Of a DNA stretch of 23,246 nt, positions 12,420 through 23,047 are shown in pieces. The DNA comes from a virus. The notes beneath the pieces were generated by a model. It ran no database searches and was not told the origin of the DNA. It saw nothing but the letters and a program-made list of their open reading frames with translations. The DNA is taken from IMG/VR virus record IMGVR_UViG_3300017772_000139, positions 1 through 23,246 of that record. The stretch is one strand, 5' to 3'. The position numbers and the translations under genes were made by a program. Numbering within the stretch: position 1 is the first letter of the stretch; each line of letters opens with the position of its first letter.

Positions 12420-12630
12420 AGTCTTTTCCTCTTGGTCGTTGGTTAACCCAATCCTCTATCTCTTCGAGAACCCAACGGCTGGCGGATCTTCTATTGTGCT
12501 CACTGCCAAGCACGATAGGTTGGGGGAAGCTTGAGTCTGTTTGTGCCAGTTTGTAAACGTATGACTTAGATACCCCAAGCAGATCGGCTACTTCGGATAC
12601 CCTCATCAGCTTATTAGAACGGGATGTCAT
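12403..12630 (-). CDS. AlpA/excisionase-like helix-turn-helix protein (75 aa)
   Basis: The chosen start at 12630 has AAGGAG 7 bases upstream, while an upstream in-frame ATG at 12672 lacks this and would lie deep in the primase gene. Residues 8-30 (LMRVSEVADLLGVSKSYVYKL) form a MerR/AlpA-type helix-turn-helix, followed by FPQPIVLGSEHNRRSASRW and EEIEDWV, the usual AlpA wing and end helix. It is likely a DNA-binding regulator or origin-binding accessory. Its position between primase and helicase genes favours a replication role over site-specific excision, since no integrase is seen here. It overlaps both neighbours by 17 bases. Confidence 0.85.
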   Translation of the reverse strand: MTSRSNKLMRVSEVADLLGVSKSYVYKLAQTDSSFPQPIVLGSEHNRRSASRWVLEEIEDWVNQRPRGKDYDTEQ

Positions 12631-13891
12631 TTGATATCTCCTTAATTGGTAGTTCAACTTCGCCTTCGTCAAAGGCAGGAATTACCCAACACCTAAGAGT
12701 AGATTTTATTTCGCCTTTCGGGCTGCGCTTAACGATGTTCTGCTTGCCAGTGTCTCCACCCATGTCTCGAATCATCTGCATAAGCTGACCTCTGGTTGGC
12801 CCAGAGAATCTACGGTGGTGCAGGTACTCCAACAAACCATCGAGTTTAAACTTCGTTGTACCTCCATCCGTCCATGGCTTGCCCATATCCATTTCCTCTG
12901 GGGACATGGCTCGTACATGACTTGTGCAGTAGTTACGCAAGTGATCTTTAAACTGTCCTGCGATTGTCAGTTCCGGAGGCACTTCTAAGAAGGTCGCACC
13001 TTGCATCAAACTATTGACCAGTTGCTGCCACTTCTGAGGCTTCATCGTCGGAGGCATCATGTTCTTTTGATCCATGCAAGCACGTTGGAACAACGTCTGA
13101 TTCTGTAGTTGCTCAGTGCTTAACTGTATTCTGTCTCCATCCACGTCCATAAAAAACAGGCGGGGCTCAGAAAGCATGATCGTAAGACCGCCAACAGTGA
13201 CAGCGTCCGGTGCATCATTACCTATCCCAAACTTTCTCGTAGCGCATACTGCAGGATCACAGTAACTCCGCATCGGTTCATCTTTACAGGTGTAGAGATA
13301 TTCTTTTTTCTCATGCTGCTTTGTAAGATTCACGATCTCGCTCGAGGGCAGAGGCGGACTAGCTAGTGTCCGGTTGTACCCTTCAAACTCTTGTTGCCAC
13401 TGATCTGGACTCTTCATCTTGCAGTACCGAGCTACGTTGAACAGCGTGTTGTTTCTGAACTCGTCCACAGGTCCATCTGAAAACAAATGCTCGAGGCAAG
13501 GAGGTCCATCGGTAAAGTGTTGACGGGGCTTGGATAAGCGCATCCCCTCGAGATCGCTTAAAGATACCCTGGATTTGTCCACTGTGTCTAGAAACTCGTC
13601 TAACTCCAAAGCTTCTGTCTTAGAATTAAAGGCATACCGTTGTGGTAGATCCGCATTGAAGTATGGCATGTTGATAAAGTTACCAACGTCACCCCTCTCC
13701 GCGATGATGGTGTCCTGTTTGGGGAACACCTCACAACCACTGTGTCCTAATGCAATGGACATCTCAGTCAAATAATCTCGTATGTCTGCAGCTTGTTCCC
13801 AATCTTTTAAGAACAAATACAAGTGAGCACCGCCCGACTTGGATCGACAATGAACCAAAGGAAGCTTTAACTTCTGGATCTTGTCCTGCAT
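12614..13891 (-). CDS. Archaeo-eukaryotic-type primase, C-terminal frame (split gene)
   Basis: The first ATG of this frame is at 13891, but the frame is open further upstream and there reads CKFGALDIDVYDL, the DxD catalytic motif of AEP-type primases. The annotated ATG would therefore remove the active site. Downstream, CRSKSGGAHLYLF (15-27) is the second hallmark, familiar from phage and TOTE-type primases. The remaining ~390 residues include a Cys-containing segment (YTCKDEPMRSYCDPAVC) and a C-terminal region ending SNDIPF, similar to SSB tail tips. The N-terminal part is encoded in another frame (13918-14145); one missing base near 13947-13953 would explain this. Alternatives are a true inactivating mutation or a programmed -1 shift, though I see no slippery heptamer. 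Confidence 0.8.
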   Translation of the reverse strand: MQDKIQKLKLPLVHCRSKSGGAHLYLFLKDWEQAADIRDYLTEMSIALGHSGCEVFPKQDTIIAERGDVGNFINMPYFNADLPQRYAFNSKTEALELDEFLDTVDKSRVSLSDLEGMRLSKPRQHFTDGPPCLEHLFSDGPVDEFRNNTLFNVARYCKMKSPDQWQQEFEGYNRTLASPPLPSSEIVNLTKQHEKKEYLYTCKDEPMRSYCDPAVCATRKFGIGNDAPDAVTVGGLTIMLSEPRLFFMDVDGDRIQLSTEQLQNQTLFQRACMDQKNMMPPTMKPQKWQQLVNSLMQGATFLEVPPELTIAGQFKDHLRNYCTSHVRAMSPEEMDMGKPWTDGGTTKFKLDGLLEYLHHRRFSGPTRGQLMQMIRDMGGDTGKQNIVKRSPKGEIKSTLRCWVIPAFDEGEVELPIKEISNDIPF

Positions 13892-13917
13892 TTCGTTGTG
13901 GTTTAAATCGTATACAT

Positions 13918-14145
13918 CTATATCAAGCGCACCGAACTTACACTTGTTCTCTCGTTGATTGGGATCGCACCAATACCCTGCTTCCCATCGATGTGGGCTT
14001 GCACAAGTTCCTCGGTCAGAGGTTCACGAACAATCATACTCTTGGATTCTGCTTTTCCATTGCGGCCCACCCGTCCTACAGTTGTAGTACCGTGTGCAGA
14101 TTTAGCCCCAAGAAAAGAGGCAAGCAATCTTTCTGCTTGTGTCAT
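13918..14145 (-). CDS. Primase N-terminal fragment, frameshifted relative to the rest
   Basis: The ATG at 14145 has AGGAGA 5 bases upstream and is the natural start of the primase. The sequence MTQAERLLASFLGAK leads to LTEELVQAHIDGKQGIGAIPINE, and GIGAIPI is the typical lead-in to the primase DxD motif. After INER the frame departs to TSVSSVRLI and stops at 13918, while the shifted frame reads NKCKFGALDID. Adding one A in the run at 13947-13948 would join the two into a primase of about 510 residues. As it stands the product is a 75-residue stub without catalytic residues. It follows directly on the terminator-like hairpin at 14157-14196. Confidence 0.75.
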   Translation of the reverse strand: MTQAERLLASFLGAKSAHGTTTVGRVGRNGKAESKSMIVREPLTEELVQAHIDGKQGIGAIPINERTSVSSVRLI

Positions 14146-17632: not shown

Positions 17633-18124
17633 TTAGTCCGGTAAGACTATGCGGTAAGCCTCTGTGCTTTCTAATGCGCCTTGGCTCAGTGTGTCCACAA
17701 GAAACTCTTCTACCCTAGCTGCAGAAATTTTTTCATCTTCTAAATAATTTGCCAATTCATCTGCTGTCCACCAATCAGGGTTTTCAATCATCGTCTCTAT
17801 GATCACTGCAAAGTCTTCGACCTTTGAGTCTACTGAAACGTGATTAGATTCTTCTGCTCGCTCGGGCATGGTCGCTCGAACACAACGCCAAGGTATGTGG
17901 TCTCTCTTATCTGCGTAGTTTGGTACGCAACTTGCATCAACCAAATCCCCTTGGCTAAAGTTTAAAAGTTTTGCAATACGAGCATTGAAGAAAACTGCTT
18001 CGCCTTCATCGGTAACACCAAACGCGCTCCTAGATTCAGTTAAATTTTCAATCATCACATACATAGATTCTGTGTTGAAGTTATGCTCTGAAGTGTGAGT
18101 AAAGTCTTCTGGTAGTTTATGCAT
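17633..18124 (-). CDS. Unknown phage protein with possible OB-like and winged-helix parts (163 aa)
   Basis: The ribosome-binding site AAGAGGAAA lies 7 bases before the ATG, which overlaps the upstream stop by 8 bases. Residues about 33-85 (SAFGVTDEGEAVFFNARIAKLL, GDLVDASCVPNY, PWRCVRA) have the alternating beta pattern of a cold-shock/OB-type barrel. The C-terminal part (NPDWWTADELANYLEDEKISAARVEEFLVDTLSQG) looks like a small winged helix. If so, it could be a nucleic-acid-binding regulator. Both readings are by eye and uncertain; no named family is recognised. Confidence 0.65.
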   Translation of the reverse strand: MHKLPEDFTHTSEHNFNTESMYVMIENLTESRSAFGVTDEGEAVFFNARIAKLLNFSQGDLVDASCVPNYADKRDHIPWRCVRATMPERAEESNHVSVDSKVEDFAVIIETMIENPDWWTADELANYLEDEKISAARVEEFLVDTLSQGALESTEAYRIVLPD

Positions 18125-21157: not shown

Positions 21158-21360
21158 TAGTCTCTCCCTTCCCTGTGCCAACACTCTTTCAAGTGCGCCT
21201 CTTCTGCTACTTCCCAACGCGCCATGAAATTTGTGATCCACTTGCTTTGCTTCGGAGTAAGCTTGTGCTCACACAACAACTCCATAGCATCTACGCATTC
21301 AAAACCCTGTGCCTTGCACCACCGAGCATACTTGTCATGTAATCTGTGGATCATGCTCAT
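21157..21360 (-). CDS. Small unknown protein (67 aa)
   Basis: A GAGGGAG ribosome-binding site lies 7 bases before the ATG, which overlaps the preceding stop (ATGA). The protein is helical, with three cysteines (C15, C22, C30) and a Trp/Glu-rich end (WITNFMARWEVAEEAHLKECWH). LTPKQSKWITNFMARWE could be a short helical hairpin. No family recognised. It sits between the first gene of the accessory operon and the methyltransferase-like gene. Confidence 0.65.
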   Translation of the reverse strand: MSMIHRLHDKYARWCKAQGFECVDAMELLCEHKLTPKQSKWITNFMARWEVAEEAHLKECWHREGRD

Positions 21361-21719
21361 ACGTTTACTCCCTCGATCTTAATGTAAGGAAGAAAAGTTC
21401 CATTAATTATATTAAATGTAGCCTCATAGTGAGTGTACCCATAGAATAACTCATCAAGATACTTGCCATTTAAGTCGATGATAGGACGCGCCTCGGTCCC
21501 TGCAACACGGTGCTTGCCGTAGTGTGGGTCAGCAATCAGTTCCATTTTTACATATTTTAATTCTTGGTGCATGACCCTTGAGAACACGCGCCCTCTTCTG
21601 AAACCAAAGTCCAAGAGCATCTTGCCCTCGATCCACACACGCTTGTGTCCACGATTGCTTCCAACCTTGTAGGTTTTCTTTACATCATACCCATATACAA
21701 ATTCGTGTTTGTCTGTCAT
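21357..21719 (-). CDS. First gene of accessory operon; possible SymE/AbrB-like fold (120 aa)
   Basis: The ATG at 21719 has GAGG 7 bases upstream and follows a leftward promoter. The middle section RVWIEGKMLLDFGFRRGRVFSRV followed by VKMELI resembles the swapped beta-hairpin of AbrB/SymE-type proteins (strand, Gly-x-x-Leu, GF..G, strand). HRVAGTEARPIIDLNGKYLDEL may form a second similar unit. This is weak, pattern-level similarity. If correct, it would be a DNA- or RNA-binding early regulator placed next to the repeat-rich control region. Otherwise it is a phage protein of unknown function. Confidence 0.55.
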   Translation of the reverse strand: MTDKHEFVYGYDVKKTYKVGSNRGHKRVWIEGKMLLDFGFRRGRVFSRVMHQELKYVKMELIADPHYGKHRVAGTEARPIIDLNGKYLDELFYGYTHYEATFNIINGTFLPYIKIEGVNV

Positions 21720-21740
21720 AGTTGAACCTCATAATTGAAT

Positions 21741-21767
21741 TGTTGATATTGAACAAGTTAATCAACA
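21741..21767. promoter_or_regulatory. Inverted repeat over the leftward -10 box (operator candidate)
   Basis: TGTTGAT (21741-21747) mirrors ATCAACA (21761-21767) with a 13-base spacer. The -10 box of the leftward promoter (21755-21760) falls between the arms. A dimeric repressor or an RNA hairpin in the leader could act here. Seven-base arms are short, so this is tentative. Confidence 0.4.
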
Positions 21768-21783
21768 GGCCACAGGTAGTCAA
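21755..21783 (-). promoter_or_regulatory. Promoter of the leftward accessory operon
   Basis: On the minus strand TTGACT (21783-21778) matches the -35 consensus at five of six positions. After exactly 17 bases TAACTT (21760-21755) matches three of six -10 positions. The start codon of the first gene lies about 36 bases further on. The weak -10 box suggests help from an activator or control by the overlapping inverted repeat. Confidence 0.5.
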
Positions 21784-21801
21784 GTTTTATTTTTAGGGAG
21801 G

Positions 21802-21987
21802 TAGTACGTTGAGTTACACTATAGGCACATTCTCCAGAAAAAAAGTAAAAAAGTTTTTATCCATTCAAATCTGACGTAATAAACGTACTAAACGTACTAT
21901 TCAAAAACAAAAAGTAATGTTTACAACCTTCTAAGTAGCCCATGAAGTAGTACGTTTGGCAGTACGGTAGTACGTTTCTCTGGAGAA
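21802..21987. repeat. Iteron-like TAGTACGTTT boxes in a 342-bp non-coding region (possible origin/control region)
   Basis: Boxes: TAGTACGTT at 21802-21810, inverted AAACGTACTA at 21881-21890 and 21890-21899 (sharing one base), TAGTACGTTT at 21948-21957 and 21968-21977, and a degenerate CAGTACGG at 21960-21967 between the last two. The set is enclosed by TTCTCCAGA (21830-21838) and its exact inverse TCTGGAGAA (21979-21987). The stretch between is A/T-rich. No open frame of note lies in 21720-22061. Repeated boxes of both orientations plus AT-rich DNA between divergent operons fit a replication origin or a multi-operator switch. Confidence 0.75.
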
Positions 21988-21990
21988 AAC

Positions 21991-22002
21991 TCCTATATAG
22001 GA
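21991..22002. promoter_or_regulatory. Perfect 12-bp palindrome TCCTATATAGGA
   Basis: TCCTATATAGGA is fully self-complementary and follows directly after the TAGTACGTTT boxes and a GGAG-AAAA-CTCC hairpin (21982-21993). Its centre TATATA could also serve as a -10 element for rightward transcription toward the terminase gene, though no good -35 box is placed for it. It is 60 bases before the terminase start. Confidence 0.4.
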
Positions 22003-22061
22003 AAGATGGACATCATCCGGTCTATGGTTTATCTTGTTTGTAATACACAACGGGGAACATC

Positions 22062-22631
22062 ATGTCGATGCAGGAAAAGATAGAAGATGGGGAAGAACGT
22101 GTCCTCACAAACAGGCAAAAAACTTTCGCTAGGTTTATTGTAGAAGGCATATACTCGAATGCCGAGGCCGCGAGGAAAGCAGGATTTGCTGAATCAACAG
22201 CCAGTAAACATGCATCCCTACTGTTAAATGGCAGGGACTATCCGCATGTGCTCGAGTATATTCAAGAAATGAGAGAGGAACGGGAACGCAGATATGGCGT
22301 GTCAACTCTCGGTCAACTCGAAAGGCTGTACAAATTATCGGTTGGTGCTGAAGAAAACGGTCAATTTTCTGCGGCTATTAATGCTGAGAAAATCCGCTCC
22401 GCATTGGGCGGTTTAACTGTTGATCGAAGAGAGCAAGTGAACACCATCGATCAGCTATCTCGAGACGAAATTGTTGGACGTTTAGCAGACCTCCAAAAGA
22501 AATACCCCCAAGCTTTTGAGATCGAGGGGACAGCAAAGGATATTACACCAAATGAGCAAGGGACCAGAGGCGAACTTTTGGAACACATTGAGGTCGAATC
22601 TGCCTCCGAAATGCCAAGCGACAAGGATTGA
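22062..22631 (+). CDS. Terminase small subunit
   Basis: The 189-residue protein has an N-terminal LTNRQKTFARFIVEGIYSNAEAARKAGFAESTASKHASLLLN (15-56), the helix-turn-helix layout of small terminases, which recognise packaging sites on phage DNA. An acidic helical stretch (REERERRYGVSTLGQLERLY) then suits ring assembly. The tail is acidic. GGGGAA lies 6 bases before the ATG. It is followed by a nuclease gene that begins 80 bases before its own stop. The large subunit is not in the window, and is expected to the right or on the other side of the genome. Confidence 0.88.
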   Translation: MSMQEKIEDGEERVLTNRQKTFARFIVEGIYSNAEAARKAGFAESTASKHASLLLNGRDYPHVLEYIQEMREERERRYGVSTLGQLERLYKLSVGAEENGQFSAAINAEKIRSALGGLTVDRREQVNTIDQLSRDEIVGRLADLQKKYPQAFEIEGTAKDITPNEQGTRGELLEHIEVESASEMPSDKD

Positions 22632-22974
22632 AAACAAACATGGCGGCGGTGTTCCTGATGTACATTTAATATGGGATGGCTTGCCTTGTTGGATCGAACT
22701 AAAGGTATCTAAAGGAAATGCTGTAAAACTCTCGGCTCATCAAGTCGCATGGAATACAGTGTATTGGGCTCGAGGTGGTGCAAATTTCATCTTAGTAAAG
22801 AGGTCCTCTGAGCGTGATCTACTTTTATTTGAGGGGGGTCAAAGCGCCCAACTTGTGGAAAAAGGGCTGTCTGGAACCGTTGGTTCGAGGTTCGTGGGCC
22901 CTGCGCCTTTATTTGAGGGTCTGCGGCCCCGACTTCTGGACCGATACTCTGCGGCTCTGCGCCCTGCGCCCTAG
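22552..22974 (+). CDS. VRR-NUC-type nuclease (PD-(D/E)xK fold), 140 aa
   Basis: Start taken at 22552 (MSKGPEANFW), where similarity to the family begins; the upstream ATG at 22516 adds an unrelated-looking segment. Residues 25-51 carry RIENKHGGGVPDVHL and CWIELKV with D36, E49 and K51, the PD-(D/E)xK catalytic set, and a following Q64. Such small nucleases occur in phages as junction-resolving or structure-specific enzymes, acting in recombination or before packaging. It overlaps the terminase gene by 80 bases in another frame. The last ~30 residues (from GSRFVGPAPL) are encoded by GC-rich repeats and look added on rather than part of the fold. Confidence 0.85.
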   Translation: MSKGPEANFWNTLRSNLPPKCQATRIENKHGGGVPDVHLIWDGLPCWIELKVSKGNAVKLSAHQVAWNTVYWARGGANFILVKRSSERDLLLFEGGQSAQLVEKGLSGTVGSRFVGPAPLFEGLRPRLLDRYSAALRPAP

Positions 22975-23017
22975 TTTTTTGGTCTGCGGCTCCGCTGCCC
23001 TGCGGGTCTGCGGCCCC
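22917..23017. repeat. GC-rich GGGTCTGCGGCCCC repeats
   Basis: GGGTCTGCGGCCCC occurs at 22917-22930 and 23004-23017, with a variant GGTCTGCGGCTCCGC at 22981-22995. Related CTGCGCC/CTGCGGC units fill much of 22900-23017, and the word TTATTTGA lies next to both perfect copies. The first copy falls inside the nuclease gene, the others after its stop. Each unit can form a small hairpin. Base composition is far more GC-rich than the surroundings. Confidence 0.7.
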
Positions 23018-23047
23018 ATGTTATTTGAATCTATTATGCAGCGCAAT

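Follow-up and report, generated by a model that had tools for sequence, protein, structure and literature searches.

Box arrays upstream of terS covary with the primase C-terminal domain and mark a probable replication origin in a group of marine phages

The alpha protein of satellite phage P4 is a multidomain primase whose single polypeptide also provides the helicase and recognises the origin, and it binds short repeats in two regions (ori1 and crr). In SaPI/PICI elements, two sets of iterons are accompanied by an AT-rich region and are read by the C-terminal domain of the replication protein (PMC6092414, PMC7581432); the first of these papers also refers to P4 alpha and the site it binds. 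For pRN1 a minimal replicon and origin have been mapped (PMC4234260). In geminiviruses the short iterons of close relatives differ, and each set fits its own Rep (PMC12548392). No iteron array laid out like the one reported below was found in the literature consulted on pRN1 ORF904 and phage NrS-1.

The DNA analysed here is a 23.2 kb IMG/VR record (23,246 nt; hereafter the window), in which structural genes run rightward to 8403 and an early operon, mostly in leftward orientation, extends from 21719 down to about 8400. The gene for the small terminase subunit, terS (22062–22631, + strand), starts at 22062, and the 342-bp gap between it and the leftward gene 21357–21719 is flanked by divergent operons and holds a set of short boxes. 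Judged from sequence, positions 21802–22002 are probably the phage replication origin, with the boxes acting as iterons that would be bound by a covarying hairpin of the primase C-terminal domain. An iteron-like control region and candidate origin had already been proposed here by a sequence-only reading, and on our computational evidence this is the best-supported interpretation, because it is specifically the C-terminal domain of the primase, an enzyme of replication, with which the box sequence covaries.

The locus resembles SaPI/PICI elements in its two iteron sets accompanied by AT-rich DNA, in having a replication protein's C-terminal domain as proposed reader and in the character of a mobile-element replication module. 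Unlike in those elements, the reader here would be an AEP primase and not a Rep helicase, the array lies 8–11 kb from the primase gene whereas the SaPI/PICI ori directly follows its gene, and the clusters are oppositely oriented with the most AT-rich tract outside them. Since reader, gene distance and position of the AT-rich tract differ, the array is not a SaPI/PICI replicon as described. P4 alpha is similar, by description, in being a primase protein that binds short repeats, as is proposed here, but the present phage encodes its helicases in genes of their own and has a single array. With pRN1 ORF904 and the phage NrS-1 primase-polymerases the protein shares the AEP fold, at the level of weak structural matches; no match to their accessory domains was found. 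Geminivirus Rep provides an analogy only, as it is a rolling-circle initiator of single-stranded DNA viruses and belongs to an unrelated protein family.

The exact box TAGTACGTTT occurs four times in the whole window, always inside 21881–21977, and with a further 9/10 copy the set spans 176 bp; in 300 dinucleotide-preserving shuffles of the window, exact copies averaged 0.02 and never exceeded 1. The inner layout consists of three leftward boxes (period 9), a core and three rightward boxes (period about 10), and thus of two inner clusters. Two exact leftward copies (− strand) at 21881–21890 and 21890–21899 have base 21890 in common and are preceded, at the same period of 9, by a decayed third box, TATTACGTCA (7/10; 21872–21881, −), that is better preserved in some relatives (L109, L138). 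On the other side, exact rightward copies (+ strand) at 21948–21957 and 21968–21977 enclose a decayed middle box, CAGTACGGTA (21960–21969, +), which in other box types, e.g. that of G014, is a full third box. The spacer between the two opposed clusters is AT-rich, measures 40–50 bp and contains the central core CAACCTTCTAAGTAGCCCAT (21924–21943), nearly invariant in relatives with the same boxes, its GCCCA being retained beyond them. In most near relatives AGTACG is retained at the position of the outer box, B0 (TAGTACGTTG, 9/10; 21802–21811, +).

The array is framed by two arms. The left arm, CTATAGG-N4-TTCTCCAGA (21819–21838, +; CTATAGG at 21819–21825 and TTCTCCAGA at 21830–21838), is a conserved frame element that occurs in variant form in relatives with other boxes. 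Its inverted copy, the right arm TCTGGAGAA-N3-TCCTATATAGGA (21979–22002, −; TCTGGAGAA at 21979–21987), ends in the 12-bp palindrome TCCTATATAGGA (21991–22002), and TTCTCCAGA and TCTGGAGAA are parts of a longer inverted pair that includes CTATAGG and TCCTATA. The A/T tract at 21837–21862 is a candidate unwinding region and forms part of the 100-bp stretch with the highest AT content in the window (24% GC), located in the array. It is found at the same position in relatives; in G001 the array is again the AT-richest 100 bp, and in G014 and G015 it is among the six most AT-rich stretches. The sequence-only reading had described five clear boxes and one degenerate box (CAGTACGGTA), two inverted boxes with a common base, and an outer inverted pair with a 12-bp palindrome and AT-rich DNA between divergent operons. 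Our coordinates agree with it on every one of these elements and the boxes it listed are real, although its inventory overlooked the second decayed box at 21872–21881 (−).

Just left of the array lies a candidate leftward (early) promoter of the sigma70 type, TTGACT-N17-TAACTT (21755–21783, −; −35 at 21783–21778, −10 at 21760–21755), recognised by motif and retained as TTGACY-N17-TARCWT in the aligned relatives. A rightward terS promoter, ATGGAC-N17-TTATCT (22006–22034, +), is tentative, being weak in the window and read from the letters on a weak basis; relatives show TTGNNA-N17-TARMTT at its position. An array placed between divergent operons and flanked by a conserved leftward sigma70-like promoter and a candidate terS promoter could be an operator, on which the primase C-terminal domain would mainly control the divergent promoters while replication started elsewhere. 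We regard this as unlikely, given the AEP primase domain of the proposed reader and the agreement of two opposed clusters beside an A/T tract with the PICI origin as published. The operator and origin readings may both hold. A T7-like promoter reading of the left arm (CACTATAGG) was dropped; no RNA polymerase was seen by eye among the ORFs of G001, a near-complete relative.

Several features of the surrounding genes were recorded in passing. The early operon of G001 encodes a protein that by eye resembles sigma70 region 4 (L181 19561–20205); the window lacks an equivalent at this position. Outside the window, a conserved gene that runs towards terS encodes a cysteine-containing protein (CPMRGE...CTACKLCKG; L181 16365–17111 in G001, +978 to +1718 relative to terS in G014). 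Downstream of terS, at about 22850–23020 of the window, there are GC-rich short repeats of the CTGCGGCCC/CTGCGCCCTGCG type, and relatives have a similar GC-rich spacer (in G014 at −4160 to −3700 relative to terS) that differs greatly even where the phages are almost identical.

Relatives were collected from IMG/VR with the neighbouring TerS as bait, which yielded 80 loci; blastn against phage records gave no match. In the near group (TerS at least 88% identical) and in some phages at about 75%, the same boxes are found at the same place, which is the conservation in related genomes that the sequence-only reading had called for. The genome-wide scatter that it had named as contrary to its proposal is not seen, the boxes being confined to one locus: neither the window nor relatives of up to 57 kb contain a second cluster of them. 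Its appeal to GC skew fared less well. In two near-complete relatives the array and the detrended minimum are about 4 kb apart, and this is weak, uninformative evidence because skew follows the direction of transcription, the reversed SNF2-like gene included. Features of an iteron origin are present in the form of repeats confined to one locus, an adjacent AT-rich region and a cognate replication protein, the latter identified by covariation only.

Other relatives retain the frame upstream of terS and carry a different box sequence, and the boxes within one array change jointly. In the rightward reading the box types include, among others, TGGATAC, TGATGAC, TGTTTAC, TGAGTCA, TGAGGAC, TGAGAAC, TGAGTAC, TGATTAC and GTATTAC, and in more distant phages, whose primases are 42–50% identical, TCGTTAC, TTGTATC, TTGTTCC and GTGAGAC. 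Upstream of terS in L032 the leftward cluster has apparently been lost and GGTGTCA stands beside TGGATAC, which points to recombination or to a chimeric assembly.

In two pairs of long contigs, from phages that are 95–99% identical and match almost fully over most of the early region, the boxes differ, namely G018 (TGTTTAC) versus G015 (TGAGTCA) and G014 (TGATGAC) versus G023 (TGGATAC). AlpA is 100% identical in both pairs and TerS is 100% identical in the first and 99% in the second; hence, neither alone sets the box type. In lambda, cos lies directly upstream of terS and the R-sites of cosB are read by TerS. The present array is likewise directly upstream of terS and possesses outer inverted arms and a palindrome, so that it might be a cos or pac packaging site with boxes read by TerS. 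This is highly improbable, as boxes differ between phages with identical or nearly identical TerS and as TerS tracks box type with a correlation of only 0.31. A packaging role for the arms or the palindrome is still conceivable.

The boxes might instead be read by one of the small early proteins, whether AlpA-like, SymE/AbrB-like (OB-wH), HTH or RHH, or by a protein encoded outside the compared contigs. Some of these do vary: G018 and G015 have exchanged C-terminal halves in their OB-wH proteins, and a 17% difference separates the HTH proteins of G014 and G023. Among those tested, however, none changes in both pairs (AlpA is constant, OB-wH is 98.8% identical in G014/G023 and HTH 97% in G018/G015), and the correlations with box type are 0.11 for the AlpA-like and 0.14 for the OB-wH protein. 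There is accordingly very little probability of another regulator as the reader, and both the AlpA-like protein, unchanged despite different boxes, and the SymE/AbrB-like protein, which tracks box type poorly, drop out as the box binders that had been suggested for them. Twelve proteins other than the primase were tried over the 17 contigs that contain both primase gene and array; ten gave 0.08–0.31, a 134-aa protein was negative over six contigs, and for the HTH protein homologues were too few for a correlation. TerS, AlpA, OB-wH, HTH, DUF1281-like and other early proteins were set aside as readers through the pair comparisons and correlations. A Myb-like gene downstream of terS (in G014 and G016, absent from G035 and G032) was also set aside since it is missing in phages that possess the array. 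In the OB-like protein (17633–18124 in the window) the first 77 residues are 98.7% identical between G018 and G015 and the remainder is unrelated; its homologue is missing in other phages.

Sliding comparison of the two pairs revealed few divergent places, and the 3′ end of the primase gene diverges in both. The whole primase differs at 14 positions in one pair and 11 in the other, with 9/14 and 7/11 of these inside the 38 C-terminal columns before RCW. In the window, residues 86–510 of this AEP-TOTE-type primase, the proposed box reader, are encoded at 12614–13891 (−), and its N-terminal part (aligned residues 1–66) lies in another frame at 13918–14145 (−) that is continuous with the rest in relatives. 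The frame is broken in the window only (13892–13947, residues 66–86), by an assembly error or a mutation; in about a dozen relatives the primase is one open frame of 507–511 codons.

Intact relatives matched the Pfam family AEP-TOTE (PF22548) with E-values of 5e-14 and 2e-15 (52.8 and 57.9 bits; curated cut-off 27) and the PHROG primase family phrog_21866 with 4e-92 and 6e-93. The motifs DxD (D75, D77) and GGAH (G105, G106, A107, H108) are invariant across 36 primase sequences. An AlphaFold2 model (mean pLDDT 81) matched structures of CRISPR-associated Prim-Pol (CAPP; E 2e-10) and, weakly, the RepB′, S-2L, pRN1 and NrS-1 primases; the match to SaPIbov1 Rep was weak and non-significant. By these sequence scores, above the curated cut-off, the protein is an AEP primase of the TOTE type, for which primer synthesis is predicted. 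The AEP primase domain is the only confident Pfam domain in it and no helicase domain was detected; the phage encodes PolA and separate UvrD-like and SNF2-like helicases in the same region.

In the model, the C-terminal domain is composed of two helices (435–444 and 452–461) and a hairpin (465–490) and has a winged-helix-like look. The varying residues are situated on the hairpin, and the preceding helix is conserved. The predicted β-hairpin GGDTGKQNIVKRSPKGEIKSTLRCW (12686–12760, −), with residues 466–474 and 483, covaries with the boxes. Foldseek searches of the C-terminal domain alone against solved structures returned no significant match, and for this reason we infer its DNA binding from the covariation.

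Distances between boxes correlate with distances in the 38-column stretch at r = 0.56 (17 contigs), and a partial Mantel test controlling for the rest of the primase gave 0.52 (p = 0.0002); with four later contigs (n = 21) the partial value was 0.43 (p = 0.0002). The contigs that hold both the primase gene and the array are few and related, and these p-values serve as a guide only. A 30-residue window slid along the primase peaked at starts 450 and 465 (0.57 and 0.61), compared with 0.01–0.37 for all starts from 90 to 435. Most of the association lies in residues 466, 468, 470, 472 and 474, which alternate on the predicted strand 465–475, and in residue 483 on the partner strand.

Simple rules describe two of these positions. 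Residue 470 corresponds to box base 3 (N to A, H to G, A to T) and residue 483 to box base 5 (T or S to T; N or K to G or A). Of 21 contigs, 20 obey both rules, though the majority of these contigs had also served to derive them. The exception is G015 in the framing TTGAGTC; it fits if the box is framed TGAGTCA, a choice made post hoc. One prediction recorded beforehand was borne out: the L351 lineage, with A470 and T483, should have boxes of the form xxTxTAC, and L404 of the same lineage then showed TGTTTAC and TATTTAC. For the L267, L252 and L277 lineages, for which boxes had also been predicted, no contig among those collected carried primase and array together. L418 (N470, T483; TGAGTAC) as well as L421 and L434 (A470, T483; TGTTTAC) also conform, without having been named in advance. 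Covariation strongly indicates that the primase C-terminal domain reads the boxes base-specifically.

The nearest cultured relatives are HTVC023P-type pelagiphages (PolA 47–53% and TerS 31–35% identical), which PMC10149686 places among the ocean's most abundant phages. They have box clusters of their own: CTAGGAAAA in HTVC023P, where some 245 bp separate it from the downstream terS (L318 11621–11770), TGGCACAC in 023Pt_psg01 and TGTTTCAC/TGTAACA in HTVC027P (L180 about 17100; L179 about 16908). In two of them, unlike in the present phage, the cluster does not immediately precede terS, and their primase C-termini are not closely similar to the one described here. The literature searched, with partial coverage, contained no origin description for phages of this type. 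Distant relatives of the AEP primase are present on bacterial contigs (a Mesorhizobium-labelled one of 580 kb; Rhodospirillaceae), possibly in prophages or other integrated elements, with three tandem boxes and inverted partners nearby (L466 about 12341, L470 about 2983, L472 about 4191).

If the array is the origin, several primase molecules would gather on the two opposed clusters via their C-terminal hairpins, and the adjoining A/T tract would open after primase binding. The AEP domain would then lay primers for the phage PolA, assisted by the UvrD-like and SNF2-like helicases. Bound primase may also influence the divergent early and late promoters that flank the array. Beyond this, we lean slightly towards an undescribed class of origin and initiator, in which a helicase-less AEP primase would be the origin binder and its hairpin would read 7-bp iterons by a simple residue-to-base code. 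Lytic phages that are otherwise nearly identical would then differ in origin specificity, much as incompatibility groups do, through a small number of hairpin substitutions accompanied by exchange of the whole box set.

For this marine phage group the result places a probable origin and names the protein expected to bind it. The code is simple enough for boxes to be predicted in part from the primase, as was done once in advance here. It also raises the question of why these phages have switched origin specificity repeatedly; speculatively, this may avoid cross-replication in co-infected cells or permit escape from satellites that imitate the origin.
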